A stretch of DNA of 37,105 bases. Source: a virus. Position 1 is the stretch's first letter; the number at the start of each line of letters is the position of its first letter. Below are positions 6,368 to 32,328 of this stretch, piece after piece. The stretch is taken from IMG/VR virus record IMGVR_UViG_3300032294_000353, positions 1 to 37,105 of that record; one strand, written 5' to 3'. The position numbers and the translations under genes were made by a program. A model generated the notes under the pieces. It saw nothing but the letters and a program-made list of their open reading frames with translations. It was not told the DNA's origin and did no database searches.

Positions 6368-8119
6368 ATGGGTTTGGCAGCAGCAGCAGCTATAACAGCA
6401 ACAGCCGCGGTTGGCGGTGCTGTAGTCGCCGGCAAAGCATCTAAAAAAGCGGCGGACACACAAGCAAAAGCTGCTACGGATGCAGCAGCATCGCAAGAGC
6501 GCGCGGCGGCGCTGGCGATAGAGGCCCAAAGGACTGGCACTGCTGAAGCCGTCGCAGCAGCAAAAGAAGCTGCAAAGGTAGCGCAGACCGCGCAGGACGC
6601 GGCTAACAAAGCAGCGCAGGATTTTGCGCGGGCTGAGTATGAAGAAACGCGCGGCGAATTTGATAAAGGTTTTACTGGCGCTGAGAGCGCATACGGTAAA
6701 GCCTTTGGCGGCGCGCAAGACGCATACACTCAGGCGTATGGACAGGCCCAAGGCGCATACGACCGCTCTTACGATGCGTCGCAAGGTGCGTATGATACAG
6801 GGTTCACCGGCGCGCAGACCGCTTACGACACAGGGTTTGGCGGCGCGCAGACCGCTTACGATACGGCGTTCGGCGGCGCTCAAGAGGCGTACAACCGTGC
6901 GGCTGCCGATGCTCAAGCCGCGTATGACAGGTCATTCGGCGGCGCTCAAACTGCATTTGACCAAGCGTACCAGCGGCAAGAAGGCTTTCAACAGCCGTAT
7001 ATCCAAAGCGGCCTAACCGCCCAAGACCAGATTATGCAGCTTATGGGCCTCGGCGGCGACAGGAACGCCGCTGATTTCGGCCAGTACGCTAAGGCTTTTG
7101 GCACAGAACAGTTTGAGCAAGACCCCGGCTATGCTTTCCGTCAAGCGGAAGGCATGAAGGCGCTTGAGCGCAGCGCATCTGCGCGTGGTGGTCTTATGTC
7201 CGGCGGTGCCTTGAAAGGTATCCAGCGTTTCGGCCAAGACTTAGCCAGCCAAGAATTTGGCAACGCATTTAACCGCTATCAGACTGAGCGCGCCGCGCGT
7301 CTTGGTACGCTGGGCAGCTTAACGGGCGCAGGCCAATCGGCGTCAAATAACATGAGCAACTTTGCTGGGCAGTACGGCGCGCAAACCGCCGGAAACACTT
7401 TAGGGCTTGGTCAAGCAACTGCTCAAAATGCGCTGGGGCTAGGGCAGGCGACCGCGCAGAACCGGCTCGGCCTTGGGCAAGCAACTGCACAGAACCGTTT
7501 GGGTCTTGGGCAGGCTACCGCAGGGAACGCCCTTGCGCGCAGCCAGATGACCGCGCAGAACGCACTGAACCGCGGCGAAGCTACCGCTGCAACATCTTTA
7601 GGTCTTGGTCAGGCAACCGCAGGAACTAATTTGGGTCTGGGTCAGGCGATGGCAGGGACTGCGCTCGGACGCGGAAACGCTATGGCCGGCAACGCAGCCA
7701 ACTATTACGGCAATCAAAGCAATCTTGCGCTGGCCCAAGGCCAGAACACTGCACAAAACGCGTACAACGTCGCACAGGCGCAGCAGCAGGGTGCCATGAA
7801 CTTGGCAAATGCTGCTTCGCAAGGCGCGTACAATGTTGGCAACGCGCAAGCCACAGGCGCCATAAACGCAGGACAAGCCCGTGCGTCGGGCTACATCGGT
7901 CAAGCCAACGCCATAACAAACGCTATGGGGCAGATAGGTAACTTTGCAGCGCAAGCACCTATGAACAACGCCATGATGGCCTACTATAGAAATAACATTC
8001 CTCCTGCGCCGGGGGCCGCGCGCACCACTGCGGCGGCACCGTCAATGGTTATGCAGCAGCCTGTTTTCGGGTATGACCCCTACACTGGGCGCAGTGCCAA
8101 CTACCTAACAAACACGTAA
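6368..8119 (+). CDS. Ejection-type virion protein with two 11-residue repeat arrays
   Basis: The 583-residue protein sits where P22 encodes ejection protein gp7. It begins with an Ala-rich, weakly hydrophobic segment and a long Ala/Lys helix. Residues 104-202 hold nine 11-residue repeats of the form GAQTAYDTGFG. A globular region follows (about 205-330), including GYAFRQAEGMKALERSASAR, typical of phage DNA-transfer proteins. Residues 345-443 hold nine further 11-residue repeats (LGLGQATAQNR type), and an Ala/Gln/Asn-rich tail ends the protein. Eleven-residue periodicity fits long helical bundles. The role in passing DNA through the envelope is inferred from synteny and composition. GAAGGAAG precedes the start. 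Confidence 0.82.
   Translation: MGLAAAAAITATAAVGGAVVAGKASKKAADTQAKAATDAAASQERAAALAIEAQRTGTAEAVAAAKEAAKVAQTAQDAANKAAQDFARAEYEETRGEFDKGFTGAESAYGKAFGGAQDAYTQAYGQAQGAYDRSYDASQGAYDTGFTGAQTAYDTGFGGAQTAYDTAFGGAQEAYNRAAADAQAAYDRSFGGAQTAFDQAYQRQEGFQQPYIQSGLTAQDQIMQLMGLGGDRNAADFGQYAKAFGTEQFEQDPGYAFRQAEGMKALERSASARGGLMSGGALKGIQRFGQDLASQEFGNAFNRYQTERAARLGTLGSLTGAGQSASNNMSNFAGQYGAQTAGNTLGLGQATAQNALGLGQATAQNRLGLGQATAQNRLGLGQATAGNALARSQMTAQNALNRGEATAATSLGLGQATAGTNLGLGQAMAGTALGRGNAMAGNAANYYGNQSNLALAQGQNTAQNAYNVAQAQQQGAMNLANAASQGAYNVGNAQATGAINAGQARASGYIGQANAITNAMGQIGNFAAQAPMNNAMMAYYRNNIPPAPGAARTTAAAPSMVMQQPVFGYDPYTGRSANYLTNT
6677..6973 (+). repeat. Nine coding 33-bp repeats, GAQ-AYD type
   Basis: In the ejection-type gene, nine consecutive 11-codon units share G/A-A-x-x-A-Y/F-D/G/T/N-x-x-x-x. 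The centre units (GAQTAYDTGFG, GAQTAYDTAFG) are nearly identical and the flanking ones have diverged, as expected of an old expansion. Confidence 0.85.
7400..7696 (+). repeat. Nine coding 33-bp repeats, LGLGQATAQNR type
   Basis: A second 11-codon array in the same gene with consensus LGLGQATAQNR. Units 1-4, 7 and 8 are close copies; units 5, 6 and 9 are divergent. The period matches the first array although the sequence is unrelated. Confidence 0.85.
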
Positions 8120-13764: not shown

Positions 13765-13952
13765 TTCTTCAGGCCTTTCAAAAGTTCGCCGCGCTCCCGC
13801 GCCGTCCGCAGCGCAGAGTACCGCTGGTGCAGTCGCCGGGCGAGGGCGGGGCGCTTGTGTGTCTTCAGTTCCGCGTCCAACGCGGCCTTCAGTTCGTCTT
13901 CCGTAAGGTCGGACAGCACGGCAATCATCGACCGCCAGTTTAGTTTACTCAT
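13761..13952 (-). CDS. Small helical phage protein next to SNF2 helicase
   Basis: The 63-residue product starts MSKLNWRSMIAVLSDLTEDE and is predicted to be all helical and basic (HKRPALARRLHQRYSALRTA). Similar short proteins with a LTEDEL...LARRLHQR pattern often accompany phage helicase genes, from memory of such neighbourhoods. It overlaps the helicase stop by 8 bases and is coupled to the 43-residue gene after it. It may bind DNA or the helicase; no function is established. Confidence 0.75.
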   Translation of the reverse strand: MSKLNWRSMIAVLSDLTEDELKAALDAELKTHKRPALARRLHQRYSALRTARERGELLKGLKK

Positions 13953-15258
13953 TTTTTAGTTCCTCTAATGCTATGTCGGACACCGCACGCTTGTCGTGCA
14001 GCGCCGCCCATATGCGTTCGTCAATACTCTTCTCGGTCAGCATCACATAGACCCAGACATCCTTTGTCTGACCACTGCGGTGCAGGCGCCCGACCGTCTG
14101 CTCGTACAACTCCAGCGACCACGGCAGCGACAGGAATACCATGTGGCATCCGCCGTGCTGTAGGTTCAGGCCGTGGCCTGCCGACTTAGGGTGCGCCAAC
14201 AGCAGTTCGACTTCGCCGCGGTTCCAGCGTTCGATGACGTTGTCGTCGTCCATCGTCTGCGCGTGCGGGAAGCGGCGCTTCAACTCAGCCAACTCTTCCT
14301 GATACGTATAGGCGATGATGGTGTTGGCCCGCTGGTTTTCCGCCAGCAGTTCTTCCAGCCGGTCAAACTTGTGGCTGCTGAACCATATGGACGGCGTACC
14401 TGCGTCGCGGTTGTAGACAAAGCCCGACGCCATCTGTTGCAGCTTGGTCGTCACCGACGCTGCGTTCTGCGCTACGATCTGGTCGTCGCCGAAGCGCACA
14501 ACATACTCACGCTTCATCTTGTCGTATGGCTTGCGATCGTCCAGCGCGACGCGCACCTCTGTGACATGGCACGGCGGCAGCTTGTCCTTGTACTCGCCCG
14601 GCTCCAGCACGAACGTCGCAGGGCGGATGCGCTGCATGACTTGCTCCAGCGCACCGGCGGCTGGAACCCACTGGCCGAAGTCGCGGTTGGTGCAGATGAA
14701 ATACTGCTGCATGAACGCACCCTTGGCGCGGCCCAACAACCCTTGGTCAATGATCTTGCACTGGCCGAAGACATCCTCCAGCCCGTTCGATGTGAACGAG
14801 CCGGTCAGACCCCAGCGCACCTTGACGTTAGCCAGCAGCTTTTCCAGCGACTTGAAGCGTTTGCCGCTGGGGTTCTTCAGCCGCGTCAGTTCGTCAAACA
14901 CAATCCCGTCGAAGCTGGATAAATCCTCTAGCTTATCTAAGTTATCATAGTTAATGACGACCACACTGGCGTCGCTCTGCAACGCATCCACCCTTTGCAC
15001 TGGCGTGCCGACAGCCAGAGCAGGGACGACGCCAGACCATTTCGGCGCTTCCACCGGCCACACATCCGTGCAGACACGCTTCGGCGCTACCACCAGCCAG
15101 CGTTTGACGTAGCCGTCGCGCAGCATCTCATCCATCGCCGTCAAGGTAATGGCGGTCTTGCCCGCGCCGACAGGCGCAAGGATCATGGCGCGGTCGCGCT
15201 CATACAGAAACGTCGCGGCTTCCTGCTGATACGGCCTTAGCTGAAGCGTTTGAGCCAT
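13945..15258 (-). CDS. SNF2-family DNA helicase / translocase
   Basis: The start is placed at ATG 15258 (MAQTLQLRPYQQEAATFLYE) because AGAGGA lies about 10 bases upstream; a longer start at 15288 would double the overlap with the nuclease gene. The 437-residue protein has the SF2/SNF2 motifs: RPYQQEA (Q-like), APVGAGKTA (Walker A), FDELTRLKN (motif II, DE), GLTGSF (motif III), and near the C-terminus SAGHGLNLQ and QTVGRLHRSGQ (motifs V and VI). Phage SNF2 proteins of this size commonly sit with VRR-NUC nucleases and probably act in replication fork or recombination intermediates. Confidence 0.92.
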   Translation of the reverse strand: MAQTLQLRPYQQEAATFLYERDRAMILAPVGAGKTAITLTAMDEMLRDGYVKRWLVVAPKRVCTDVWPVEAPKWSGVVPALAVGTPVQRVDALQSDASVVVINYDNLDKLEDLSSFDGIVFDELTRLKNPSGKRFKSLEKLLANVKVRWGLTGSFTSNGLEDVFGQCKIIDQGLLGRAKGAFMQQYFICTNRDFGQWVPAAGALEQVMQRIRPATFVLEPGEYKDKLPPCHVTEVRVALDDRKPYDKMKREYVVRFGDDQIVAQNAASVTTKLQQMASGFVYNRDAGTPSIWFSSHKFDRLEELLAENQRANTIIAYTYQEELAELKRRFPHAQTMDDDNVIERWNRGEVELLLAHPKSAGHGLNLQHGGCHMVFLSLPWSLELYEQTVGRLHRSGQTKDVWVYVMLTEKSIDERIWAALHDKRAVSDIALEELKNE

Positions 15259-15512
15259 GCGTCCACATCCTCTACTGACCACAGGCAAGCGTAATGCTGC
15301 TTGGTGTGCGTCATCTCATCTGCAAAGATACGCTGCAACGCAGACAGACGCCCGCCGGCTTTCTTCAGTTCGATAAACCAAGCCTCACCGTTGGGCATAC
15401 AGGCGATGCGGTCGGCCACACCGATCTGCGTAACGCTGCGGAACTTGTAGGCAAAACCGCCTACCGCACGCACGCGTTTACAGAAATACCGCTCTATCTC
15501 TTTCTCAGTCAT
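15237..15512 (-). CDS. VRR-NUC domain nuclease
   Basis: The 91-residue product is a single VRR-NUC domain (PD-(D/E)XK fold). The active-site elements are visible: E5 in MTEKEIERYF, GVADR (Asp of the catalytic pair), then EAWFIELKKAGGRLSALQ with the ExK and the Gln of the family. Such stand-alone phage enzymes are thought to cut branched or structured DNA during replication and recombination. Its end overlaps the SNF2 start by 22 bases. The upstream neighbour is divergent, and the 96-base gap between them should hold promoters for both directions. Confidence 0.9.
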   Translation of the reverse strand: MTEKEIERYFCKRVRAVGGFAYKFRSVTQIGVADRIACMPNGEAWFIELKKAGGRLSALQRIFADEMTHTKQHYACLWSVEDVDAWLKRFS

Positions 15513-17471: not shown

Positions 17472-19427
17472 ATGTCTAAATTATGGGTTGACTTTGAGAC
17501 GCGCAGCCGTTGCGACCTTCGCAGCCGTGGCGTGTATAACTACGCGCAGGACGCCAGCACCGACGTGCTGTGTATGTCCTACGCATTTGATGACGAAGAC
17601 GTGCGGACGTGGCTCCCCGGTGAGCCTTTCCCGCAAGCCGTCAAAGACCACAAGGGGCTGGTATACGCGCACAACGCAGCGTTCGAGCGCCTGATATTCT
17701 GGTATGTCCTTCAGGTCGATTTCAAGCTGGAGCAGTTCTACTGCACCGCAGCGCAGGCCCGCGCCAACTGCGCGCCGGGTAGCCTTGAAGATGTGGGCCG
17801 CTTCGCTGGCGCTACCATGAAGAAAGACCATCGCGGCGGACAACTGATCCGCGCGCTGTCCATCCCGCAATCAGACGGCACGTTCCGTGAAGACGCCGCG
17901 CTGATGCAGGAGATGGTCGATTATTGCGAACAGGATGTCAGGGCCATGCGCGCTATCGCGCAGGCGCAGCGTCCGCTGTCGGCTGAAGAGTTGGCCGACT
18001 ATCACACCAACGAGCGCATCAACGACCGCGGCGTCCTGCTCGACAGGCCGCTGGCGCAGGCGGCTGTCCGCTACGCTGAAACTGAATTGGCTGAGATACA
18101 GTCCATCGTCGCAGAGGTGACGCACGGCGAGATTAAGTCCGTTCGCAGCCCGAAGATGAAGGATTGGGTGTTAGCTAGGGTAGGGCCACAGGCGCTTGAT
18201 CTGGCGACCGTGATGAAGGACGGCGTCGAGAAGCTGTCCATTGACAAGAACGTGCGCGCCAACTTACTCGTGTTGGCAGAGGAGAACCCAGATGAAGTCC
18301 CGGCGGAAGTTGCAGAAGTCATCCAGTGCGCGGACGATCTGTGGGCATCGTCCGTTGCGAAGTTCCAACGTGCAGCGGCGCTTGCTGATGAGGAAGATTT
18401 TCGCGTTAGAGGAGCGTTCGTATTTGCTGGAGGCAGTGCTACTGGACGCGCTTCATCGTTTGGGCTTCAGGTCCATAACTTCCCAAGAAAGTGCGCCGCC
18501 GACCCTGCATTAGTGCGGCAGGCTATGGTGCGCGGCCACAGCATCGTTCCTGAACATGGTCGCCGTGTGACCGACGTGCTGAAGGGTATGCTACGCCCTG
18601 CGCTAATGGCCGACAAAGGCAAGCGGCTAATCGTCGCTGACTGGGCAGCTATCGAAGCGCGGGTGACGCCGTGGGCGTCCAACAGCACCTTCGGCGCGAA
18701 CAAGCTGGACATCTTTGCCAAGGGTGAGGACGTTTACAAGCACAACGCTATGGCGACCTTCCATGTCGGCTATGACGACGTTGACAAAGACCAGCGCCAG
18801 ATCGGCAAGGTTCAAGAGTTAGCGTGCGGCTTTGCTGGCGGTGTCGGAGCCTTCGCCAGTATGGGCCGCATCTACGGCCTGATGATGTCGGAGAGCGACG
18901 CAAAGCGCATGGTGGACGCATGGCGCAGGGCTAACAAGTGGGCCGTGCCTTACTGGTCTGGCCTTGAAGAAACCTATATGCGCGCCATGCGGAACAAGGG
19001 CCGCGAGTTCACCATTGGCCGCGTCACATATTTATTTGACGGGTTGCATCTTTGGTATGCTCTTCCGTCTGGCCGTGTGCTATGTTATCCTTTCGCCCGC
19101 TTCGATGAGAAAGGCGACCTAACCTATGCCAAGGCTTCATGGAAGCCAGCCGCAGACGCTAAGGAATGGCCAAGGGCGCGGCTGTGGCGCGGTCTGGCGT
19201 GTGAAAACATCACGCAGGCTGTTGCTAACGACTTGCTGCGCCACGCCTTGCGTCAGTTGGACGATGTAGTTTTGCACATCCACGATGAAATCGTCTTGGA
19301 AGTGCCAGAAGATGATGCAGAGGCCGCAGCAGAGCGGCTGGTGCGGATTATGTGTGAGCCGCCACCTTGGGCGTCGGGTTTACCCTTGAACGCAGAAGTG
19401 GCAATTATGGAACGATACGGCAAATAA
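17472..19427 (+). CDS. Family A DNA polymerase with 3'-5' exonuclease domain
   Basis: The 651-residue protein is a compact phage family A polymerase. Exonuclease motif I is DFET at residues 7-10 (MSKLWVDFETR), with LVYAHNAAFERL as motif II and a YCEQDVRAM motif III-like segment. The polymerase part has motif A (VADWAAIEARVTPW, catalytic Asp390), motif B (RQIGKVQELACGFAGG, R442 and K446), and motif C (IHDEIVLEV, H604-D605-E606). No 5' nuclease domain is present. It should replicate the phage genome together with the primase-helicase encoded 11 bases downstream. Confidence 0.95.
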   Translation: MSKLWVDFETRSRCDLRSRGVYNYAQDASTDVLCMSYAFDDEDVRTWLPGEPFPQAVKDHKGLVYAHNAAFERLIFWYVLQVDFKLEQFYCTAAQARANCAPGSLEDVGRFAGATMKKDHRGGQLIRALSIPQSDGTFREDAALMQEMVDYCEQDVRAMRAIAQAQRPLSAEELADYHTNERINDRGVLLDRPLAQAAVRYAETELAEIQSIVAEVTHGEIKSVRSPKMKDWVLARVGPQALDLATVMKDGVEKLSIDKNVRANLLVLAEENPDEVPAEVAEVIQCADDLWASSVAKFQRAAALADEEDFRVRGAFVFAGGSATGRASSFGLQVHNFPRKCAADPALVRQAMVRGHSIVPEHGRRVTDVLKGMLRPALMADKGKRLIVADWAAIEARVTPWASNSTFGANKLDIFAKGEDVYKHNAMATFHVGYDDVDKDQRQIGKVQELACGFAGGVGAFASMGRIYGLMMSESDAKRMVDAWRRANKWAVPYWSGLEETYMRAMRNKGREFTIGRVTYLFDGLHLWYALPSGRVLCYPFARFDEKGDLTYAKASWKPAADAKEWPRARLWRGLACENITQAVANDLLRHALRQLDDVVLHIHDEIVLEVPEDDAEAAAERLVRIMCEPPPWASGLPLNAEVAIMERYGK

Positions 19428-19438
19428 AGGAGCAAGCG

Positions 19439-21784
19439 ATGAGTGAGGATCGCACGAAGTTTATAGAATACATAACTGGCTTGGCGACGGACAACGTCGG
19501 CGAGACAGCTCTTGTTGTGCGGCAGAAGCCGCAGCACGACAGCGACGGCAACCTGATATATCACGCAGACGGCGTGCCGAAGGCGACGTTCCCTGCGTTT
19601 CTGCCAGAAAAGACCCGCATGAAAGAAGGCGAGGCATGGTATGTCAACACAGGCTCGTTCATTGTTGACCGCTTTGTAGACGGCAAGCCAGCCGCCAAAG
19701 CCAGCAACGTCGAGTATGTGCTGTTCATGATGCTGGACGACGTTGGCACGAAGTCAAAAGAGCCGCCGTTGGCGCCGACATGGGTGTTGGAAACCAGCGA
19801 AGGTTCGTTCCAGTGGGGCTACGCGTTCAGCGAACAACCGCGCAAGGGCGATTTCTGCGCTGCCATCAAAGCGATTGCCGATGCGGGCTACACCGATCCC
19901 GGCGCAACTAACGCAGTCCGCAACTGCCGTATCCCCGGCAGCGTCAACCTGAAACGCGGACGCAACAACTTTCCTGCACGGCTGGTCGAGTTCCACCCTG
20001 AGCGTGAGTATACGCTGGGCGAAATCTGCGAGGCGCTGGACGTTACGCCAGAGGAAGGCGACACAGCCGAATATAAAGCCGTGCATCTGCGCGACAGCGG
20101 GATGGATAACGTCCTGACATGGTTAAGCGAAAACAACCTAGTCCTGAGCGCGCCTAACGCCGACGGCTGGTGCGCCATCGTCTGCCCTAACCATGACCAA
20201 CACAGCGACGGCATGATCGAAGCGCGCTACAAGCCGCTGGATCGTTCGTTCTGCTGCTATCATGGGCATTGCCAAGACCTAGACAGCCGCACCTTTCTTG
20301 ATTGGGTAGCCAATGAAGGCGGCCCGAAGGTGACGCCGGGCTTGCGTGACGAACTAATTGCGGAGCGCATGGCGTCGATGATGGACAAGATAGCACCAAC
20401 CGAAGCGTTCCCCGATGAAGCCGCAGCGCGTGTGCGTGAGGTCGAGAAAAAAGAAGCGGGACGGCTGGAACAAAACGAATGGTTTGAGCGTTTCGCTTAT
20501 ATCCAGTCCGATGACTGCTATTTTGACATGGTGACGCGTCAAGAGATAGCCCGCAACGTCTTTAACGCGCTGTTCCGTCACGTTGACTGCCGCTCCATCC
20601 ATAAGAAGACGCAGCGCATACAGTCGTCCATCTATTTTGATGAGCGGCGTCAGGATCGCGGCGCACCTGCGCTGTCGGCGGTAACGTTCGCCGCTGGCGA
20701 TGATGTTCTGGTGACGCGTGACGGGTTGGTTTACGGCAACCGCTGGACGGACTCCCGCCCTGATGTGTCCGGCAGCGATAAGATTGCAGACCATGATGTC
20801 GAGCCTTGGCTTGAGCATTGCCGCAATCTGGTCGCAGATGATGCCGAACTAGACCATATTCTTGACGCTATGGCGTTCAAGATACAGCACCCTAACGTCA
20901 AGATTAACCATGCAATCCTGATTGGCGGCGATGAAGGCGCGGGTAAGGACAGTATGTTCCAGCCGTTCCTGTGGGCGCTTGGCGGTAAGCATTGGCGCAA
21001 CAGGTCAGTCATTGAGGCTGGCGGGTTGGATAGCCAGTGGGGTTATGCGCTTGAGGCTGAAGTTGTCATCCTGAACGAGTTGAAGGAGCCAGAGGCGCGC
21101 GAACGTCGCGCTATGGCTAACAAGCTGAAGCCGCTCATCGCTGCGCCGCCTGAAACGCTATCGGTCAACCGCAAGGGGATGCACCCTTACGAGTTGGTCA
21201 ACCGCCTGATGGTGATTGCATACACCAACGATCCGCTGCCTATCACGCTGCCGACGCAGGACAGGCGTTGGTTCTGCGTGTGGACGCACTCGCCGCGTAT
21301 GTCTGCATCGGCTGCTAAGGCGCTGTGGGGCTGGTATGAGAATGGCGGCTACGAAAAGTGCGCCGCTTGGCTGCACCAGCGCGACGTGTCGGCGTTCAAC
21401 CCTGCCGCTGCGCCGCCAGTGACCGAATGGAAGCTGAACATGGTCGAGCATGGCATGAGCGTCGCGGAAAGCTATCTGGTAGACCTGATGCGGCTTCGGT
21501 CGGGTGTCTTTGCTGATGGTGTCATCGGTGGGCCTTTCCACCGCATCTGTGACGCGTTGGCTGTCAACGTCCCTGCTGGTGTGAAGATACCGCAGGCGGC
21601 GCTGCTTCACGCGTTGAAGGAAGCTGGCTGGGTTGACGTAGGGCGCATTCATTCTGTTGAGTATCCAACGAAAAAGCATATCTTTGTCGCGCCTGAAATC
21701 AGCCAGAGGAACAAATCAGAATTGCGCCGCATGGCAGAGGAATTGCCCAAGTCTGGGTTCATGCCGTCGATAGGCAAGAATTGA
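19439..21784 (+). CDS. Primase-helicase with RepB-type primase and SF3/D5-like helicase (DUF5906-like)
   Basis: The start ATG 19439 has AAGGAG 7 bases upstream. The 781-residue protein has three parts. Residues about 80-190 resemble the RepB/archaeo-eukaryotic primase fold (VLFMMLDDVG; VRNCRIPGSVNLKRG). A zinc-binding segment follows (IVCPNHDQHSDG ... FCCYHGHCQD, about 246-282). The C-terminal ATPase has Walker A GGDEGAGKDS at 496-505, VVILNELKEPEARERR near 542-557 as Walker B region, and a conserved Asn/Arg segment (VNRLMVIAYTNDPLPI, TQDRRWF) as in virulence-associated E and D5-like helicases. It probably primes and unwinds at the phage origin. Confidence 0.9.
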   Translation: MSEDRTKFIEYITGLATDNVGETALVVRQKPQHDSDGNLIYHADGVPKATFPAFLPEKTRMKEGEAWYVNTGSFIVDRFVDGKPAAKASNVEYVLFMMLDDVGTKSKEPPLAPTWVLETSEGSFQWGYAFSEQPRKGDFCAAIKAIADAGYTDPGATNAVRNCRIPGSVNLKRGRNNFPARLVEFHPEREYTLGEICEALDVTPEEGDTAEYKAVHLRDSGMDNVLTWLSENNLVLSAPNADGWCAIVCPNHDQHSDGMIEARYKPLDRSFCCYHGHCQDLDSRTFLDWVANEGGPKVTPGLRDELIAERMASMMDKIAPTEAFPDEAAARVREVEKKEAGRLEQNEWFERFAYIQSDDCYFDMVTRQEIARNVFNALFRHVDCRSIHKKTQRIQSSIYFDERRQDRGAPALSAVTFAAGDDVLVTRDGLVYGNRWTDSRPDVSGSDKIADHDVEPWLEHCRNLVADDAELDHILDAMAFKIQHPNVKINHAILIGGDEGAGKDSMFQPFLWALGGKHWRNRSVIEAGGLDSQWGYALEAEVVILNELKEPEARERRAMANKLKPLIAAPPETLSVNRKGMHPYELVNRLMVIAYTNDPLPITLPTQDRRWFCVWTHSPRMSASAAKALWGWYENGGYEKCAAWLHQRDVSAFNPAAAPPVTEWKLNMVEHGMSVAESYLVDLMRLRSGVFADGVIGGPFHRICDALAVNVPAGVKIPQAALLHALKEAGWVDVGRIHSVEYPTKKHIFVAPEISQRNKSELRRMAEELPKSGFMPSIGKN

Positions 21785-21810
21785 CAACCATTTGGTTGCA
21801 ATGATATAGG
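21781..21810 (+). promoter_or_regulatory. Candidate promoter facing a terminator, possible small RNA start
   Basis: A perfect TTGACA (21781-21786) overlapping the primase-helicase stop is followed after 18 bases by TATAGG (21805-21810). CAACCA and TGGTTG (21785-21790, 21793-21798) form an inverted repeat in the spacer. The only sequence it could transcribe before the terminator at 21843-21878 is about 60 bases. Confidence 0.5.
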
Positions 21811-21816
21811 TCGCGG

Positions 21817-21878
21817 GTCGGTGATGCTCCGCTGGCTTGATTAAACCCCCGGCGTCCTCACTCCGCCGGGGGTTTTTT
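21817..21878 (+). ncRNA. Hypothetical ~60-nt RNA between promoter and terminator
   Basis: If the promoter at 21781 is active, the transcript would run from about 21817 to the T run at 21873-21878. It contains no reading frame of note. It ends in the 12-bp terminator stem. This is inference from the two signals alone; the region may equally be just the 3' end of the replication mRNA. Confidence 0.3.
21843..21878 (+). terminator. Strong intrinsic terminator of the replication block
   Basis: AAACCCCCGGCG (21843-21854) pairs with CGCCGGGGGTTT (21864-21875) around a 9-base loop, running into six Ts (21873-21878). It ends rightward transcription just before the leftward gene cluster. Because As flank the left arm, only modest termination is expected for leftward transcripts. 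Confidence 0.9.
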
Positions 21879-21886
21879 ATTGTCTG

Positions 21887-22102
21887 CTATCGCAGTCGGG
21901 TAACTGTCAGCTTGTCACCATTAGAGCGCGTCATGTAGCGGCGCTCTGTCCGCTCGTTCTGGTTGTGTGCTGCGCGGCGCAGGAGGTCTTTGTCCCGCTC
22001 CGTTGGCGTGTCGAACACGCGAACCTCATCAACAGCCATTGCGTTAATGCCGTGCTTAGATTTGCGTGTGTCAGAACCGAATGTCATCGTCTTTCCAATC
22101 AT
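21887..22102 (-). CDS. Small basic protein, paralogue of 22457-22642
   Basis: The 71-residue frame begins MIGKTMTFGSDTRK; an internal ATG at 22087 (MTFGSD) is an equally plausible start because it shortens the overlap with the tiny upstream frame. The C-terminal half (RRAAHNQNERTERRYMTRSN ending LTVTRLR) matches the pattern of the protein at 22457 (TSRNVSQYGIRNGKAFKCRT ending VTFITRLR). The fold implied is a helix followed by a beta hairpin with many Arg, common in small phage proteins that may bind nucleic acid. It is the last gene of the leftward cluster. Confidence 0.75.
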   Translation of the reverse strand: MIGKTMTFGSDTRKSKHGINAMAVDEVRVFDTPTERDKDLLRRAAHNQNERTERRYMTRSNGDKLTVTRLR

Positions 22103-22148
22103 AAATGTCCCAGCCGAAGTTTTCGAACAGGAATTGGCGTAGGCTCAC
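22071..22148 (-). CDS. 25-residue aromatic/acidic microprotein, GTG start
   Basis: GTG at 22148 overlaps the stop of the upstream gene (GTGA) and opens a 25-codon frame, MSLRQFLFENFGWDIYDWKD then DDIRF. The density of Phe, Trp, Tyr and Asp is unlike random sequence, and the overlap type fits the cluster. It overlaps the next gene by up to 32 bases. It is too short to assign; confidence rests on coupling and composition. Confidence 0.45.
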   Translation of the reverse strand: MSLRQFLFENFGWDIYDWKDDDIRF

Positions 22149-22273
22149 CCCCACCATTCTTCTTCCATTTCTTTGCGTTCTTGCTCTGTTATCTTTGGTG
22201 CGGTCGCAATCAGGTATGCGGTCAGGCCCAGCAGCCCGACGACGATAAAGAATAAAGGTGTGTTGTCTGTCAT
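22145..22273 (-). CDS. 42-residue single-pass membrane protein
   Basis: The product starts MTDNTPLFFIVVGLLGLTAY, giving one membrane helix, followed by an acidic, Trp-ended tail (EQERKEMEEEWWG). The start overlaps the upstream stop as ATGA (22270-22273) and its stop overlaps the next start as GTGA. Composition and topology resemble small phage inner-membrane proteins. The function is unknown. Confidence 0.7.
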   Translation of the reverse strand: MTDNTPLFFIVVGLLGLTAYLIATAPKITEQERKEMEEEWWG

Positions 22274-22452
22274 TGCGGTTTCCAATCGTCAGGATAAGGG
22301 ACTACATTAGCGGTGGTTTTGTAAAGCCGCCCATTTTCGTCGTAGTGTTCCGTCACTGTCGATCCGTCATCGTTCAAGACAACGGCATGGTTAGGGTATA
22401 TTTTCCACGGCTTGCCCGTCTGGGCGTCCATGCGGTAATTTATCTTAGTCAT
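22270..22452 (-). CDS. Small phage protein of unknown function
   Basis: The 60-residue product (MTKINYRMDAQTGKPWKIYP...) is polar with a beta-type pattern (NHAVVLNDDGSTVTEHYDEN, GRLYKTTANVVPYPDDWKPQ). It has no membrane segment or known motif. It is coupled to the downstream membrane protein by an ATGA overlap and lies 4 bases after the upstream gene. Confidence 0.72.
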   Translation of the reverse strand: MTKINYRMDAQTGKPWKIYPNHAVVLNDDGSTVTEHYDENGRLYKTTANVVPYPDDWKPQ

Positions 22453-22456
22453 TGTC

Positions 22457-22642
22457 TTATCTTAACCTCGTTATGAATGTGACGCCCTCAACAGTGCGGC
22501 ACTTGAACGCCTTCCCGTTCCTGATGCCATATTGCGAGACGTTGCGGCTGGTGCGCTTGGCATCACCGCGCTTGTCTGCTGGCATGGTGGCTACTTCACC
22601 AACTTCTAGCGTCCCCATTGGGTAAATCATCGGGCGGCTCAT
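22457..22642 (-). CDS. Small basic phage protein, paralogue of 21887-22102
   Basis: The 61-residue product starts MSRPMIYPMGTLEVGEVATM, continues with a basic helix (DKRGDAKRTSRNVSQYGIRN) and ends GVTFITRLR. The layout (GE-x-V-x-x-P, then a helix with R/K and aromatic residues, then a strand ending in R-L-R) is frequent among small phage proteins; related ones are often read as DNA-binding, but this is not demonstrated. The start overlaps the upstream stop as ATGA (22639-22642). Confidence 0.75.
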   Translation of the reverse strand: MSRPMIYPMGTLEVGEVATMPADKRGDAKRTSRNVSQYGIRNGKAFKCRTVEGVTFITRLR

Positions 22643-22884
22643 TTCAGTAGCCCCCGTGCTACGCAGGCTTGGCGCAGATGCTCCGGCCTAAACCCCCATA
22701 CGCGGTAGTGGCTGCCATAGGTCTGGCAGACACGCGACAAATGCTGCTCGTGCTGCCGCAGTTCAGCCTTTAGGCGCTCGTGCTTTTCAATGGCCCTTGC
22801 AGCCACACGCAACAGGTCAAGTTCGGGGTCAATGTCCTTTTCGTCATCATCAACAGACGGGTCTATAACTTTAATCTCAAACAT
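22639..22884 (-). CDS. Small helical phage protein
   Basis: The 81-residue product starts MFEIKVIDPSVDDDEKDIDP. An acidic N-terminus is followed by a long helix (LLRVAARAIEKHERLKAELR, QHEQHLSRVC) and a segment resembling a small binding domain (YRVWGFRPEHLRQACVARGL). AAGGAA lies about 10 bases before the ATG. No known domain. It is coupled to the gene after it. Confidence 0.72.
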   Translation of the reverse strand: MFEIKVIDPSVDDDEKDIDPELDLLRVAARAIEKHERLKAELRQHEQHLSRVCQTYGSHYRVWGFRPEHLRQACVARGLLK

Positions 22885-22897
22885 CGTTCAGGTTCCT

Positions 22898-23230
22898 TTA
22901 CAGTTCTATTGTTGTGGTAGGCTTGGGGCGTCTGTCGTTTAGCCGTGCCAGCCAATAGGCGCGCTCAGGGCCATCTGCGCGTTCGGCATGGTATCGGAAC
23001 AACGCAAGGGCTAGGTCGTCATATCCCTGCCGCTGATGCGTCGTGATTAGCGGCGATGGTATCATCGGCTTGAGGTTGGGCCGATAGTCCCTGATCCCTT
23101 CGCAAGCGTCCTCTATGTCGCGCAGCGTCAGGTTAAGGTTCCGTTCCCTGTTGATGTATTGAAGCACCGCCGACTTGTCGGTGATATAGCTGGACAGTTG
23201 GCGTATCTTGGCGCGTAGGTTCCTATCCAT
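22898..23230 (-). CDS. Phage protein of unknown function with possible N-terminal HTH-like region
   Basis: The start is placed at ATG 23230 (MDRNLRAKIRQLSSYITDKS), which overlaps the previous stop as TAATG; an upstream ATG would overlap the preceding gene by over 100 bases. The 110-residue product has a helical first half in which TDKSAVLQYINRERNLNLTL then RDIEDACEGIR could form a helix-turn-helix-like unit. A second helical part includes GYDDLALALFRYHAERADG. The role is unknown; a small regulator is possible. Confidence 0.75.
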   Translation of the reverse strand: MDRNLRAKIRQLSSYITDKSAVLQYINRERNLNLTLRDIEDACEGIRDYRPNLKPMIPSPLITTHQRQGYDDLALALFRYHAERADGPERAYWLARLNDRRPKPTTTIEL

Positions 23231-23430
23231 TAGCGTTTGTCCTTTTTGACGTAGCGGCCTGTTTTGGGGTCGCGCTGCACAGCGTTGCGCTTCCATTCCA
23301 GCAATTCGGTAGCGTCGCGCAGCCACATATCGCGCCAGTCGTAACACTCATTTTTTGTGATATATAGCAGGGCAAGCGTAACGGCTTGCGCGATCAACAG
23401 CGCAACAAGTGCTATTTGATATTGTGTCAT
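23230..23430 (-). CDS. Small membrane-anchored basic protein
   Basis: The 66-residue product has one N-terminal membrane helix (YQIALVALLIAQAVTLALLY) and then a cytoplasmic-type basic tail (WRDMWLRDATELLEWKRNAV, GRYVKKDKR). GGAGG lies 8 bases upstream of ATG 23430, inside the tiny frame before it. No known domain. Membrane-bound early proteins of this form are often used by phages to disturb host functions or block superinfection; that is only a possibility here. Confidence 0.75.
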   Translation of the reverse strand: MTQYQIALVALLIAQAVTLALLYITKNECYDWRDMWLRDATELLEWKRNAVQRDPKTGRYVKKDKR

Positions 23431-23433
23431 TGG

Positions 23434-23493
23434 TTAATCCTCCAGTAGTAAAGTTAATAGAAACAGGGCGGCGCCAGCCAGCAGCGCGGTCAT
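23434..23493 (-). CDS. 19-residue hydrophobic microprotein
   Basis: ATG 23493 overlaps the upstream stop as ATGA and opens MTALLAGAALFLLTLLLED, essentially a single membrane helix. Its last codons carry the GGAGG ribosome site of the next gene. Coupling on both sides and the pure membrane composition argue that it is translated, but at 19 residues this is not certain. Its absence would leave a 60-base gap in an otherwise tightly packed cluster. Confidence 0.5.
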   Translation of the reverse strand: MTALLAGAALFLLTLLLED

Positions 23494-24482: not shown

Positions 24483-24572
24483 TCAATTTACTCCAAAGAT
24501 TAGGTGGTCAAGGGTTAGCGCCGCGATGATATACACCGCGAACGCTAGGTTATGGATTGCTGCGCGGGTCAT
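24483..24572 (-). CDS. 29-residue membrane microprotein
   Basis: ATG 24572 overlaps the upstream stop as ATGA. The product reads MTRAAIHNLAFAVYIIAALT then LDHLIFGVN, consistent with one membrane helix. Its final codons contain the ribosome site of the next gene, which starts one base after its stop. The coupling on both sides supports translation. Confidence 0.55.
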   Translation of the reverse strand: MTRAAIHNLAFAVYIIAALTLDHLIFGVN

Positions 24573-24733
24573 GCTGCGCTCTTAACTAGCGACACTTTTA
24601 AGCGCACATTGTAAGCGCGATATGGGTGCGCCACACTTGTTTCGAGAAACTGCGCGTAATCTTTTGCACGCTCTAAAGTATCAAAATACGCCTCGGCGTA
24701 ATTGTCGCGGGGATCGATAACTGCGTATAACAT
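24569..24733 (-). CDS. First gene of leftward cluster, small beta-type protein
   Basis: The start is placed at ATG 24733 (MLYAVIDPRDNYAEAYFDTL) because AAGGAG lies 8 bases upstream; the longer frame upstream runs into the control region. The 54-residue product combines a strand (YAVIDPRDN), a helix (LERAKDYAQFLETS) and another strand (YNVRLKVSLV). As promoter-proximal gene of the cluster it should be expressed earliest. The function is unknown. Confidence 0.78.
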   Translation of the reverse strand: MLYAVIDPRDNYAEAYFDTLERAKDYAQFLETSVAHPYRAYNVRLKVSLVKSAA

Positions 24734-24755
24734 TGTGTTGCTCCTTGTTGTCTTG

Positions 24756-24785
24756 ATACCCTCTAATCTCATAGTTTGAGGGTAT
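24756..24785. promoter_or_regulatory. Operator-like inverted repeat upstream of leftward cluster
   Basis: ATACCCTC (24756-24763) and GAGGGTAT (24778-24785) form a perfect 8-bp inverted repeat with 14 bases between, 23 bases upstream of the first leftward gene. It overlaps a weak leftward promoter candidate (TTGCGT at 24797-24792, TATGAG at 24773-24768), so a repressor or activator site is plausible. Confidence 0.5.
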
Positions 24786-24883
24786 GCACAAACGCAATCG
24801 AATGCACTATTATGCACTAAAATGTGTTGCAGATAAAAAAGATTTGTTCCTAATCCGTTCTGTTTACGTTCCAGAATGCCAAA

Positions 24884-25275
24884 TGACCCAGAATGACCCA
24901 GAAATGACCCAGAAATTGCCCAGTTTTTGGATCGTGGATTTATCAGGGAAAATGCGCGGCGGACTGGGTAAGAAACTGGGTAAGAAACTGGGTAGTGATT
25001 TCGCGCTAAATGACCCAGAAATAAATGGCTCGAATGCGCGGGTCTTGGGGGAAACTGGGTAATCTGGGTAGTGGTTTGGTATTTAACAGGGATTTAGTAA
25101 TTTATAACCTATATGGTTAAAGTGTATATATTTCTGGGCGACTGAAAACAGAATGACCATTTTGCCCAGTCCGTGTTGCCCATGTAATACACCTACGCAG
25201 TTTGTTCTCATCAGTTTACGTTAACGTCAACTCAACTCATCGCCGACTTGAATTGTCATGACCCAGATTGCCCAG
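24884..25275. repeat. Array of about 15 TGACCCAG-like boxes in both orientations
   Basis: Forward copies start at 24884, 24894, 24905, 24916, 25011, 25162, 25176, 25259 and 25268 (TGACCCAG or TTGCCCAG; the one at 25176 is degenerate). Reverse copies (CTGGGTAA, CTGGGTAG, CTGGGCGA) start at 24964, 24976, 24988, 25055, 25064 and 25134. Within clusters the spacing is 9-12 bases, near one helical turn. The shared core is CCCAG. This is the layout of replication iterons or of a multi-site protein-binding array. Confidence 0.85.
25079..25134. other. AT-rich stretch inside the box array
   Basis: The segment from GGTATTTAAC to GTATATATTTC is markedly AT-rich compared with its surroundings and lies between the left clusters and the right copies of the CCCAG boxes. 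In iteron-type origins such stretches are where strands open. No gene is present. Confidence 0.5.
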
Positions 25276-25528
25276 TGCAAAATGTTGCAGTGCAGCATAG
25301 CCAAGACGCAATGGGCCAAGCGCACCTAGCCCACGCATTTTACTGACACCAATGTCAGCGCAAAGGGAAAGGCCAATCCCAATCCAGCTAGAACAAAAGC
25401 AGAACGCTATTTGCAACGTAGCTTCGCGCAAGTCAGCGCAACGCAACGCGAGCGTAAAACTAAACGCAAATCGCTTTTGCCGTTGTTTGCAGGGGGGAGG
25501 GGGAGGGCCGACGCGCGGTTGTGTGTCA

Positions 25529-25557
25529 TTGACAGGGTTCGCAAACAATTTTTATTT
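25529..25557 (+). promoter_or_regulatory. Candidate promoter 1 for terminase/late genes
   Basis: Perfect TTGACA (25529-25534), 17 bases, then TTATTT (25552-25557) within a long T-rich stretch. It points to the terminase genes and lies 40 bases upstream of the terminase small subunit start. Confidence 0.55.
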
Positions 25558-25560
25558 TTT

Positions 25561-25596: not shown

Positions 25597-26097
25597 ATGA
25601 CTTTCTACTCACTGCCATTCACACCCGAACGCACGCAGGCGACTGAGTCGCGGCTGGAAGCAATCTATGAAGCTGCCCGCTGCGGACTTAAGGGTGACAG
25701 TCTGGCTATGGCGGCTGGATTGACCCCGCGGCAGTTCCGCGTGCTGGCCGATGCTGACCCGCTGGTGGAGATGGCTGAGATCAAAGGTCGCGCTGACGGC
25801 GAGTACACTGCGGCCAAGACGATGTACGAAGCGGCGCGCGATGGAGACAGCAAAGCTGCGCTGGAGATACTCAAGCATCAGCACGGCTGGGTAGCCAAGC
25901 AGCAGATCGACGTAAACATCGACCAACAAATAAGCATTACAGGCGCGCTGGAAAAAGCACAGTCGCGCGTCATCGAAGGGCTGTACACAGAACTGCCCCG
26001 GCTAGAGGATAACACATCAGATGCAAGCACCGATATATTCAGCCCAAGACGAGATGGAGTTGATGGCGCGGTTGTGGTCGCCAAGCCTCAAGGATGA
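25597..26097 (+). CDS. Terminase small subunit
   Basis: The 166-residue product (MTFYSLPFTPERTQATESRL...) has an N-terminal helix-turn-helix of small-terminase type (EAARCGLKGDSLAMAAGLTP, then RQFRVLADADPLVEMAE) followed by helices (AKTMYEAARDGDSKAALEIL) and the common KHQHGWVAKQ segment. It should recognise the packaging site on phage DNA and present it to the large subunit. An alternative start at 25573 also lacks a ribosome site. A promoter-like element ends 7 bases upstream, so translation may be leaderless. It overlaps the large subunit gene by 77 bases. Confidence 0.85.
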   Translation: MTFYSLPFTPERTQATESRLEAIYEAARCGLKGDSLAMAAGLTPRQFRVLADADPLVEMAEIKGRADGEYTAAKTMYEAARDGDSKAALEILKHQHGWVAKQQIDVNIDQQISITGALEKAQSRVIEGLYTELPRLEDNTSDASTDIFSPRRDGVDGAVVVAKPQG

Positions 26098-28432: not shown

Positions 28433-30673
28433 ATGGCCGACCCTACAGGCATCAACACGGCAGGCAAAGTCGCCAACGTCGGCTCTAACCCGCCCAAAAC
28501 GTCAGGTGATGATGGCGACAAGATGGCGACCATGCGGTCGCGCCTGCAAATGGCGCAGGCTGCGTACTCTGACAGCCGTGAAGATGAACTGGACGACCTA
28601 CGGTTTATGGCAGGATCGCCAGACAACCAGTGGCAATGGCCTGCCGACGTGCTGTCAACACGCGGAAGCGTGCAAGGGCAGACAATTAACGCACGTCCCT
28701 GCTTGACAATTAACAAATTGCCGCAACACGTCCGTCAAGTTACGAACGAACAGCGTCAAAACCGGCCTAGCGGTAAGGTAATCCCTGCCGACGACAACGC
28801 TGACGTTGAAGTTGCAGAGATTTTCAACGGCGTCATGCGTCATATTGAGTATATGTCGGACGCCGACGTTGCGTATGACACGGCTTGTGACAACCAAGTT
28901 ACCTACGGCGAAGGCTATATTCGGCTGATAACTGAGTATTGCAACGAAGACAGCTTCGACCAAGACATCCGCATTATGCGCGTCCGTAACTCGTTTAGCG
29001 TCTACATGGACCCTACGATCCAAGACCCATGCGGCGCAGACGCTGAATGGTGCTTTGTTACCGAAGACATCCTGAAATCCGACTATGAGCGTATGTTCCC
29101 AGACGCGGCGCCTATCTCGACACTCATGTCGCAAGGCGTTGGCAACGAGAGCATGGCGCAGTGGTTGGCTGAAGATACCATCCGCATCGCGGAATACTTC
29201 TACAAAGACTACGAAAAAGCTACGCTGCACCTGTATCCAGACAATCAGACCGCTTTCAAAGGCACGCCACAGGACAGCAACTTGCAGGCGATGTTCGGCA
29301 AGCCTATCCGCAAACGCGAAGTAGACCGCCAGAAGGTCATGTGGATGAAAACCAACGGATTTGACATCCTCGACGAGCGGGAATGGTCTGGCAAATGGAT
29401 TCCTGTCGTGCGCGTCGTCGGCAACGAATGGGAAGTTGAAGGTCGTATGTACATCTCTGGCCTTGTGCGTAATGCCAAGGACGCCCAGCGGATGTATAAC
29501 TACTGGACCAGCCAAGAAGCAGAAATGCTGGCGCTGGCGCCTAAAGCGCCGTTTATCGGCTACGGCGGCCAGTTTGAAGGCTACGAACAGCAGTGGAAGA
29601 CAGCCAATACGACCAACTGGCCGTATCTGGAAGTCAACCCTGACGTTACAGACGGCGCTGGAGGCGTTCTACCGCTGCCACAACGCGCACAGCCACCTCT
29701 GCCCCAGACAGGTCTTATACAGGCTAAAATGGGCGCTGGAGAGGATATTAAGGCCACTACAGGCCAGTATGACGCATCGCTGGGCCAACAGGGCAACGAG
29801 CGGTCGGCTAAGGCTATCGTCGCACGCGAAAAGCAGGGCGATGTCGGCACGTATCACTACGTTGATAACCTTGCCCGTGCTATCCGTCACATCACACGCC
29901 AAGTTGTCGATATGATCCCTAAAATCTACGACACACAGCGCATTGCACGCATCATCGGCGTTGATGGCGACGTAAGCATGGTCAAGTTCAACCCAACGCA
30001 GCCAGAGCCTGTCAAGGAAGTCCGCGACATGGAAACTGGCGGTTTGATCGAAAAGATTTACAACCCCGGCGTTGGTACATACGACGTTATGGTCACAACT
30101 GGCCCCGGTTACATGACGAAGCGTCAAGAGGCGCTGGACGCCATGAGTCAGATTTTGCAGTCCAACCCGCAGCTTTGGTCTGTTGCAGGCGATTTGTTCA
30201 TTAAGAATATGGACTGGCCCGGCGCGCAGGAAATGGCGGAACGCTTCAAGAAAATCCTTGATCCGAAGGTATTGTCTGAAGGCGACCAATCACCTGAGAT
30301 GATGGCCGCACAGCAGCAAATGCAGGCGATGACCGAAGAACTGAACCGTATGACCACCATCATCGAAAACGTTCAGGACAGCGTCGCACAGCGCGAAGTA
30401 GACATTAAGGAATATAAAGCGCAAGTAGACGCTTACGATGCTGAGACAAAACGTATTACGGCTGTACAAAATAGCATGACTCCTGAGCAAATTCAGGATA
30501 TTGTCATGGGTACGATTGCAGGCGCACTGGATACAGGCGACTTGATCGGCGGCTCACCAGAGATGCGTGAACAGCCCATGATAAACGAAGAAATGCCTCA
30601 ACAGCAACCAATGCCAGAAATGGGCGGTATGCCACAGCAGCCTCCGATGCCGCCTGAAGGAATGATGGAATGA
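28433..30673 (+). CDS. Portal protein, P22 gp1-like
   Basis: The 746-residue protein resembles the P22 portal (725 residues), a dodecameric ring at one capsid vertex through which DNA is packaged and released. Family-type segments include DELDDLRFMAGSPDNQWQW, LTINKLPQHVRQVTNEQRQN, FSVYMDPTIQDPCGADAEWC, and QGNERSAKAIVAREKQGDVG near residue 460. The C-terminal part is a long helical barrel (QQQMQAMTEELNRMTTIIEN) as in P22-type portals, and the end is Met/Pro/Gln-rich. It overlaps the next gene by ATGA (30670-30673). Confidence 0.93.
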   Translation: MADPTGINTAGKVANVGSNPPKTSGDDGDKMATMRSRLQMAQAAYSDSREDELDDLRFMAGSPDNQWQWPADVLSTRGSVQGQTINARPCLTINKLPQHVRQVTNEQRQNRPSGKVIPADDNADVEVAEIFNGVMRHIEYMSDADVAYDTACDNQVTYGEGYIRLITEYCNEDSFDQDIRIMRVRNSFSVYMDPTIQDPCGADAEWCFVTEDILKSDYERMFPDAAPISTLMSQGVGNESMAQWLAEDTIRIAEYFYKDYEKATLHLYPDNQTAFKGTPQDSNLQAMFGKPIRKREVDRQKVMWMKTNGFDILDEREWSGKWIPVVRVVGNEWEVEGRMYISGLVRNAKDAQRMYNYWTSQEAEMLALAPKAPFIGYGGQFEGYEQQWKTANTTNWPYLEVNPDVTDGAGGVLPLPQRAQPPLPQTGLIQAKMGAGEDIKATTGQYDASLGQQGNERSAKAIVAREKQGDVGTYHYVDNLARAIRHITRQVVDMIPKIYDTQRIARIIGVDGDVSMVKFNPTQPEPVKEVRDMETGGLIEKIYNPGVGTYDVMVTTGPGYMTKRQEALDAMSQILQSNPQLWSVAGDLFIKNMDWPGAQEMAERFKKILDPKVLSEGDQSPEMMAAQQQMQAMTEELNRMTTIIENVQDSVAQREVDIKEYKAQVDAYDAETKRITAVQNSMTPEQIQDIVMGTIAGALDTGDLIGGSPEMREQPMINEEMPQQQPMPEMGGMPQQPPMPPEGMME

Positions 30674-32328
30674 CCGTAAGCCTCAAACATACCTTTCAAT
30701 CCGCTAAAGCTGACAGCAGCGACGTAACGATTGTCCAGCCGTCCAACTGGAACGAAGAGCATGAGTTGACGCTTGCGACCAATAAGGTGCTAGGCCGCGC
30801 TACGGCTGGCACAGGCGCCGCTGAAGAACTTAGCATCGGCACTGCCTTGTCAATATCTGGCGGCACGTTGGCTGTTACTACCGTGCCTGCCGCAAACGGC
30901 GGCACTGGCTTAACGTCGCCCGGCACTTCCGGTAACGTCCTGACCAGCAACGGCACAGGCTGGACATCCAGCGCGCTTCCAGTAAGCGCAGTGGCATACC
31001 CGCAAAATAGCCAATCAACAAACTACACGCTGGTTTTAAGTGATGCTGGCAAGCAAATATTCCACCCTGCGTCTGACGCTAACGTCCGCACCTTTACTAT
31101 ACCCGCAAACTCTAGCGTTGCGTTTCCCATCGGCACAGTGGTGTTGTTCACGGTAGAGAACAGCGGTACTCAAGTTAATGTGGCGATCACTAGCGATACG
31201 CTAGTAAACGGCGATGGCATATTAGGCACTCAAGTTGTTCCCCCAAACAATACTCTTATGTGCATTAAAGTCTCCGCAACAAAATGGATGGCTAATTATC
31301 TTTTTCAGCAAGATATACGAAGCCGTTTTCAGATTGCAATCGGTCACTCAACATCTCCGTGGGTGACCGCGTATGGTTGGACTAACGCCCTTGGCTTCGG
31401 CACTAAGTACGCAAACCCAGCTACGCTACCTACAGGCGTCGGGTACGGCGTAGCGTTTAGCCCAGCGGGCGACACAATAGCTGTAGGGAGTGAAGGCACT
31501 CCGTATATCTTAGCATACCCTTGGAGCGCCAACGGGTTTGGCACTAAATATACTAACCCAGCGACGCTACCGCCTAGTTTCGGCATGAGTGTAGCATTTA
31601 GCCCTGCGGGCGACGCTGTCGCCGTAGCTACTCTAACCACACCTTTTAGTCTAGTGTACCCTTGGACTAACGCCCTTGGCTTCGGCACTAAGTACGCAAA
31701 CCCAGCTACGCTACCAACAAACCAAGGTTATAGTGTAGCTTTTTCTCCCGATGGAACTTCTATTGCAGTAGCGCACTTAGGTTCACCGTTTGTAACGGCA
31801 TACCCTTGGAGTAGTAGCACTGGCTTTGGTACTAAATATACCAACCCAGCTACATTGCCCGCCGGAGACGGCAATGGCGTAGCGTTTTCACCCGCAGGAA
31901 ACGCAATAGCAGTAGCGCACGCCACTTCACCCTTCATTACCACCTACCCTTGGAGTGGCGCGGGCTTCGGCACTAAGTACGCAAACCCAGCTACGCTACC
32001 GGCGGGCACTGGGTACAACGTAGCGTTTAGCCCAGCAAGCGACGCAATAGCAGTGACGTTTAACGCCTCACCTTTCGTAAATGCGTATCCGTGGAGTGGT
32101 TCAGGTTTTGGAGTTAAATATTCCGATCCGGCAACGTTGCCCGCAGGAGCTAGTAGGGGCGTCGCGTTTTCACCTACTGGCGAGGCAATTGCGGTAGCAC
32201 ACGTATCATTTCCGTTTATCACAGCATATAGGTGGGGCGCGGGGGGCTTCGGAGATAAGTATTCGGACCCCAGCACTGGCGCGCCAGCGGGTAACGGCTT
32301 CAGTGTCGCATTTAACGCATCATTTTAA
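30670..32328 (+). CDS. Tail fibre / receptor-binding protein with seven-fold propeller-like repeat
   Basis: The 552-residue product starts with an N-terminal segment typical of phage fibres (SDVTIVQPSNWNEEHELTLA, NKVLGRATAGTGAAEEL), continues with the GGTGLTSPGTSGNVL linker and a beta module (about 113-212), and ends with seven repeats of about 47 residues (220-552). Each repeat has GFGTKYANPATLP followed by a GVAFSPAGDAIAVA segment and a S-P-F-x-x-A-Y-P-W strand. Seven repeats with an internal FSP-G core are the layout of a beta-propeller, which probably binds a host surface glycan or protein. The gene lies between portal and scaffold, an unusual place. Confidence 0.85.
   Translation: MTVSLKHTFQSAKADSSDVTIVQPSNWNEEHELTLATNKVLGRATAGTGAAEELSIGTALSISGGTLAVTTVPAANGGTGLTSPGTSGNVLTSNGTGWTSSALPVSAVAYPQNSQSTNYTLVLSDAGKQIFHPASDANVRTFTIPANSSVAFPIGTVVLFTVENSGTQVNVAITSDTLVNGDGILGTQVVPPNNTLMCIKVSATKWMANYLFQQDIRSRFQIAIGHSTSPWVTAYGWTNALGFGTKYANPATLPTGVGYGVAFSPAGDTIAVGSEGTPYILAYPWSANGFGTKYTNPATLPPSFGMSVAFSPAGDAVAVATLTTPFSLVYPWTNALGFGTKYANPATLPTNQGYSVAFSPDGTSIAVAHLGSPFVTAYPWSSSTGFGTKYTNPATLPAGDGNGVAFSPAGNAIAVAHATSPFITTYPWSGAGFGTKYANPATLPAGTGYNVAFSPASDAIAVTFNASPFVNAYPWSGSGFGVKYSDPATLPAGASRGVAFSPTGEAIAVAHVSFPFITAYRWGAGGFGDKYSDPSTGAPAGNGFSVAFNASF
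31327..32325 (+). repeat. Seven coding repeats (~142 bp), propeller blades
   Basis: Seven units encoding the GFGTKYANPATLP / VAFSPAGDAIAVA pattern. Blade 1 and blade 3 are identical over 54 bases (31377-31430 and 31662-31715), and blade 5 shares 38 of these bases (31963-32000). This identity at DNA level suggests recent copying between blades. Confidence 0.85.

Follow-up and report, generated by a model that had tools for sequence, protein, structure and literature searches.

A putative phage replication origin whose boxes covary with two residues of the phage primase-helicase

An array of short repeated boxes upstream of the small terminase gene terS most likely marks the site at which this phage starts copying its DNA, and comparison with about 140 related phages indicates that the boxes are read by the phage's own primase-helicase, two residues of which change in step with the box sequence. 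This recognition is inferred from covariation and from the agreement of phages retrieved by box sequence alone. The analysis was carried out on a window of 37,105 bp, positions 1 to 37,105 of an IMG/VR virus record (IMGVR_UViG_3300032294_000353), and the features discussed below are collected in Table 1.

The box array lies upstream of terS

The array described in the first-pass annotation is real. Between 24884 and 25275, in about 390 bp with 14 CCCAG cores, we found 8 forward and 5 reverse copies of [TC][GT][AG]CCCAG, along with a sixth reverse CCCAG core and a ninth forward near-copy, so that the nine forward and six reverse copies originally counted are reproduced if one-mismatch copies are included. 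Of the 14 exact T[GT][AG]CCCAG boxes in the window, 11 lie in the array, whereas shuffled genomes average 4.3 in all and never hold more than 3 in any 400 bp. The boxes stand in clusters with a start-to-start spacing of 9-12 bp, point both ways and flank an AT-rich island. The described pitch of one helical turn is approximate, since across 62 relatives the commonest same-direction spacing is 9 bp (72 cases, against 43 cases of 10-12 bp). The array occupies the gap between a leftward gene and terS, which is followed by terL and a P22-type portal. Cumulative GC skew shows no turn at the array, and a DNA search of named phages returned no match.

Table 1. Coordinates of the array, its proposed reader and other features of the window
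Position	Strand	Feature	Observations
24884-24923	+	Left cluster, four boxes	24884, 24894 and 24905 (TGACCCAG); 24916 (TTGCCCAG)
24964-24995	-	Three boxes, 12 bp apart	24964 and 24976 (TTACCCAG); 24988 (CTACCCAG)
25011-25018	+	Box	TGACCCAG
25055-25071	-	Two boxes	25055 (TTACCCAG); 25064 (CTACCCAG)
25091-25130	.	AT-rich island, DUE-like (unwinding role inferred)	GC 17.5% over 40 bp; contains TAACCTATATGG, found at a similar place in 27 of 55 relatives
25134-25141	-	Degenerate box	TCGCCCAG
25162-25183	+	Box and near-box	25162 (TTGCCCAG); 25176 (TTGCCCAT)
25218-25227	.	Palindrome inside the array region	ACGTTAACGT, present in 31 of 55 relatives
25259-25275	+	Right cluster, two boxes	25259 (TGACCCAG); 25268 (TTGCCCAG)
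17472-19427		Family-A polymerase gene	
19439-21784	+	Primase-helicase (781 aa), proposed initiator	RepB_primase/AEP-type PrimPol, then SF3 helicase, then C-terminal domain; Pfam RepB_primase, DUF5906 and VapE-like
21356-21781	+	C-terminal winged-helix-like domain (aa 640-781), proposed iteron reader	AlphaFold elements H61-71, H80-90, E93-98, loop 99-106, E107-111, H120-128; pLDDT about 90 there
21650-21670	+	Predicted wing tip codons, aa 738-744 (H-S-V-E-Y-P-T)	Residues 738, 740 and 744 covary with the box word
24569-24817		Leftward gene bordering the array	
25490-25560		G-rich tract (GGGGGGAGGGGGAGGGCCG) followed by CGCAAACAATTTTTATTTTTTTT, just upstream of terS	Conserved whatever the box type; candidate packaging or regulatory element
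25529-25558		Promoter-like match upstream of terS	Does not overlap the boxes
25597-26097	+	Small terminase gene terS (ATG at 25597)	Homologues used to anchor the locus; does not covary with box type
13945-15288		Leftward SNF2-related/DEAD-type helicase gene	Between the structural and replication modules
31416-32031		Repeated coding motif CGCAAACCCAGCTACGC	Within the gene 30670-32328

Relatives carry different box words at the same locus

A scan with the large terminase gave 80 loci and a scan with the primase another 80 (designated below by L and a number). At the same place upstream of terS most of these relatives carry an array, but often of another word: TGACCCAG, TAGCCTA(A/G), TGACCTAC, TGACGTCC, TGACAACT, TGACCCAA, TGACCCAC, TGACTCAC, TTGTCCACA or TGCCGAA. 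De novo 7-mer counts beat all 60 shuffles in 74 of 99 regions, the others holding weaker arrays or none that could be called. The word differs even between phages whose primase is over 90% identical (TGACCCAG, TAGCCTA, TGACGTCC, TGACAACT, TGACCCAA, TTGTCCACA, TGCCGAA). The absence of the boxes from relatives, which had been named beforehand as a refuting observation, must hence be read with care, since many relatives lack these exact boxes but have an array of a different word at the same place. The grammar is shared, with tandem boxes mostly 9-12 bp apart and both directions present in 57 of 62 phages, and an AT-rich island was found in each of the ten phages examined for it.

An exact DnaA box (TTATCCACA) lies in the array region of 24 of 55 relatives (L009, L012, L035, L057 and others), and in another group the iteron itself (TTGTCCACA) is one base from a DnaA box. 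None occurs within one mismatch in the window's array, which argues against a DnaA-dependent, oriC-type origin in this phage, and a DnaA-HTH protein is annotated only in the relative MW202483 (L083). This small DnaA domain IV-like protein (7083-7379) is encoded among the leftward genes of a phage that has a TGTTTACA array and a primase wing (GMCFAPELSTKRH) unlike the others.

Two residues of the primase-helicase covary with the box word

To identify the protein that reads the boxes, we typed phages by box word from DNA alone and asked how much each column of the shared genes says about the type. In the primase-helicase (numbered from the ATG at 19439 and encoded 3 kb from the array), residue 738 stands out at z 21 and explains 91% of the box-type entropy, followed by residue 740 at z 13-16 and residue 744 at z 10-11, whereas nearly all other positions of the protein are below 7. 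In the other window genes searched in the same way, including the polymerase, exonuclease, TerS, TerL and the leftward small genes, no column exceeds z 5.6; four leftward genes and the portal were found in too few loci to be included.

These results bear on two alternative readings proposed in the first-pass annotation. A multi-site operator, at which a phage repressor or activator would control the divergent early and late transcription units, would be consistent with the position of the array between leftward small genes and rightward terS, with asymmetric boxes in both directions and with the promoter-like match upstream of terS. However, none of the testable leftward genes covaries with the box type, most are absent from part of the typed relatives, and the promoter-like matches do not overlap the boxes, making this reading very unlikely. 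A packaging (pac/cos) site recognized by the small terminase is likewise suggested by the location directly upstream of terS, but TerS is 88% identical on average across phages with different boxes and its best column reaches only z 5.5. The conserved G-rich and A/T-rich block next to terS, which does not vary with box type, is a better packaging-site candidate, and we consider a packaging role for the array very improbable.

Across 73 phages, G738 goes with CCTA, A/H738 with CCCA, N738 with CGTC/CAAC and K738 with xxCAC, while K/R740 goes with C at position 8, T/V/I740 mostly with G and S/G740 with A. The (738, 740) pairs in the typed phages are A/H with V or I for CCCAG; A with G for CCCAA; G with T, S or K for CCTAG, CCTAA and CCTAC; N with K for CGTCC or CAACT; and K with R for CCCAC, CTCAC or TCCAC; D with G goes with TGCCGAA. 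L085 has G738/S740, L101 N738/K740 and L174 A738/G740. We infer from these pairs that residue 740 mainly reads position 8 (K/R with C, that is a G on the other strand) and residue 738 mainly positions 5-7. There are exceptions: L112, L120 and L138 have mixed CCCAG/CCTAG arrays with A738, V740 and a C739 in place of the nearly invariant S739, possibly an intermediate in a specificity switch; the base at position 8 is not fixed for V740 (L114 and L120 have A); and the CAACT boxes have T at position 8 with K740.

INDEPENDENCE

On a tree built from the primase without its wing, box class changes 19 times, residue 738 changes 19 times and residue 740 changes 20 times. In phylogenetically independent pairs on supported branches, the traits go the same way in 7-8 cases and the opposite way in none (sign test p about 0.016 for the CCTA/G738, CGTCC-CAACT/N738, CCCA/A-H738 and C8/K-R740 contrasts).

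Related phages can share both traits by descent or by transfer of one segment, and the two loci are only about 3 kb apart. A comparison of the window (WIN) with L085 indeed looks mosaic: the primase is 86-100% identical per 90 nt up to about aa 720 and then 71-72% over the wing, and the array is unalignable. The intervening DNA (21785-23474), however, remains alignable at about 91% identity while both ends differ, the genes between the two loci show no association with box type, and the same residue-box pairs recur in lineages with primases only 47-60% identical to the window's. We therefore regard mere hitch-hiking without functional coupling as very unlikely.

Nearly all contigs retrieved by box sequence alone carry the expected residues

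We next fetched viral contigs by box sequence only and read the wing afterwards. For TGACCCAA, 32 of 33 have A/G and one has S/G; for TTGTCCACA, 15 of 15 have K/R; for TGACGTCC, 7 of 7 have N/K; for TGCCGAA, 4 of 5 have D/G; and for TGACCCAG, all 8 distinct contigs have A or H at 738 and V, I or T at 740, four of them with primases only 47-60% identical to the window's. The fifth TGCCGAA contig, L291, has TGACTAT-type repeats as its main array (750-1250) together with G738/F740, a combination not seen elsewhere. In all, 66 of 68 fit; roughly two thirds of these have C-termini that were not in the first set and the rest repeat it. Among contigs from bacterial genome bins, L221 (K/R, GTCCACA) fits, L216 (A/R, weak GCCCACA array) fits weakly, and L215 (A738, R740) has an ACATTGC array that the code does not predict. 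DSL-LC05 (L082, 3598-4119, and L438), a named relative, has TGACCCAC/G boxes (TGACCCAC/TGACCCAG) but a primase C-terminus too divergent to align, and a second kind of reader may be at work there.

The covarying residues map to a predicted wing

AlphaFold, run on alignments that left out one row from an annotated phage record, gives the C-terminal domain the order helix-strand-helix-helix-strand-wing-strand-helix, with pLDDT about 90 around the wing, and places residues 738-744 (domain residues 99-105) at the wing tip, between strands E93-98 and E107-111. The winged-helix assignment is a prediction, as a Foldseek search of the isolated domain found no significant PDB match (best E 0.09), and Pfam and PDB-sequence searches of the domain also gave nothing significant, with no match to the P4 alpha domain or any other plausible PDB chain. 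The full-length model has low overall confidence (pTM 0.37) but matches the C-terminal region of the NrS-1 polymerase (6k9c/6lrb, E 8e-11), PriRep1 with dsDNA, the poxvirus D5/E5 helicases and the AEP domain of S-2L PrimPol.

A model for origin recognition

We interpret the array, with high confidence, as an iteron replication origin recognized by the phage's own self-loading primase-helicase, as in P4 alpha or SaPI Rep. In this model, the predicted wing would bind boxes in both orientations on the two sides of the AT-rich island and assemble helicase hexamers, the island would open, and the same protein would then unwind the DNA and prime synthesis for the family-A polymerase. Our analysis establishes the array, its positional conservation, the near one-to-one covariation of the box word with two residues of the predicted wing and with nothing else tested, the agreement of the independently fetched contigs and the domain architecture of the protein, whereas physical binding, helicase loading, opening of the island and origin activity are inferred, the last three from P4 alpha, SaPI Rep and Cch2 (PMC4234260, PMC7581432). 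The interpretation given in the first-pass annotation is thus partly supported: an origin bound by an initiator is strongly favoured, but its claim that there is no obvious initiator, so that the binder would be new, does not hold, because the covariation points to the primase-helicase itself.

Since covariation speaks to recognition and not to origin function, and the array is 3 kb from the primase gene, the primase-helicase could instead bind the array as a copy-control, fork-pausing or secondary site comparable to P4 crr, P4 having two iteron regions. We consider this unlikely, as there is no second clustered array in the window, where the 3 other exact boxes are about the chance number, and as the AT-rich island and the DnaA box of many relatives fit an origin.

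Comparison with known systems

In satellite phage P4, the alpha protein also combines primase and helicase and carries a winged-helix domain that binds short repeats at the origin (PMC4234260, citing Ziegelin & Lanka 1995 and Yeo et al. 2002). P4 alpha has a TOPRIM-type primase (PMC4234260), whereas the protein described here is an AEP/RepB-like PrimPol whose C-terminal domain has no sequence match to the P4 structure, and here the box word diversifies between near-identical phages. SaPI Rep and SCCmec Cch2 are self-loading initiator helicases (PMC7581432), with which the SF3-type fold match, including PriRep1 with dsDNA, is consistent; SaPI origins lie directly downstream of the helicase gene, whereas the putative origin described here lies 3 kb downstream, beyond leftward genes, in a phage with its own P22-type portal and terminase. 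In geminiviruses, the iterons of closely related viruses differ and the iteron-interacting parts of Rep evolve with them (PMC12548392, citing Arguello-Astorga & Ruiz-Medrano 2001), but that protein is an unrelated rolling-circle Rep with a different replication mode, while here a predicted winged-helix wing would be the reader in a dsDNA phage. The NrS-1 phage polymerase, a PrimPol-helicase, is the closest fold match of the full-length model, and no paper title or abstract that we found mentions an iteron array in it.

Iteron origins and self-loading helicases are known. What appears new is a two-residue wing code that switches repeatedly between near-identical phages in a widespread freshwater phage group; our literature searches found no report of such a code in phages, although this is weak evidence of absence given that they reached few subscription papers. 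These findings name the likely origin and its reader in a large, mostly uncultivated group (relatives of DSL-LC05, for which PMC10611076 proposes a new family), and provide a natural recognition code, with dozens of natural variants, for how a predicted winged-helix wing may read DNA. They make the choice of origin by a self-loading phage helicase directly testable with natural domain and box pairs, and the code lets origin types be read from metagenomes. The repeated co-switching raises the question, posed likewise by geminiviruses (PMC12548392), of what selects for new origin specificities: escape from origin-copying parasites, avoidance of cross-replication or simple drift of a matched pair could each account for it. 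A tentative possibility, which we regard as less likely than not, is that these phages have replication-compatibility types, in which wing code and matching iterons switch together again and again under diversifying selection, so that each phage copies only its own kind and escapes origin-copying parasites or competition from co-infecting relatives.

Further occurrences of the boxes

About ten contigs carry tandem TGACCCAG but none of the phage's proteins (for example L185, L189 and L198). A scan of bacterial genomes gave only ten contigs, mostly from metagenome bins, which do not identify a host.
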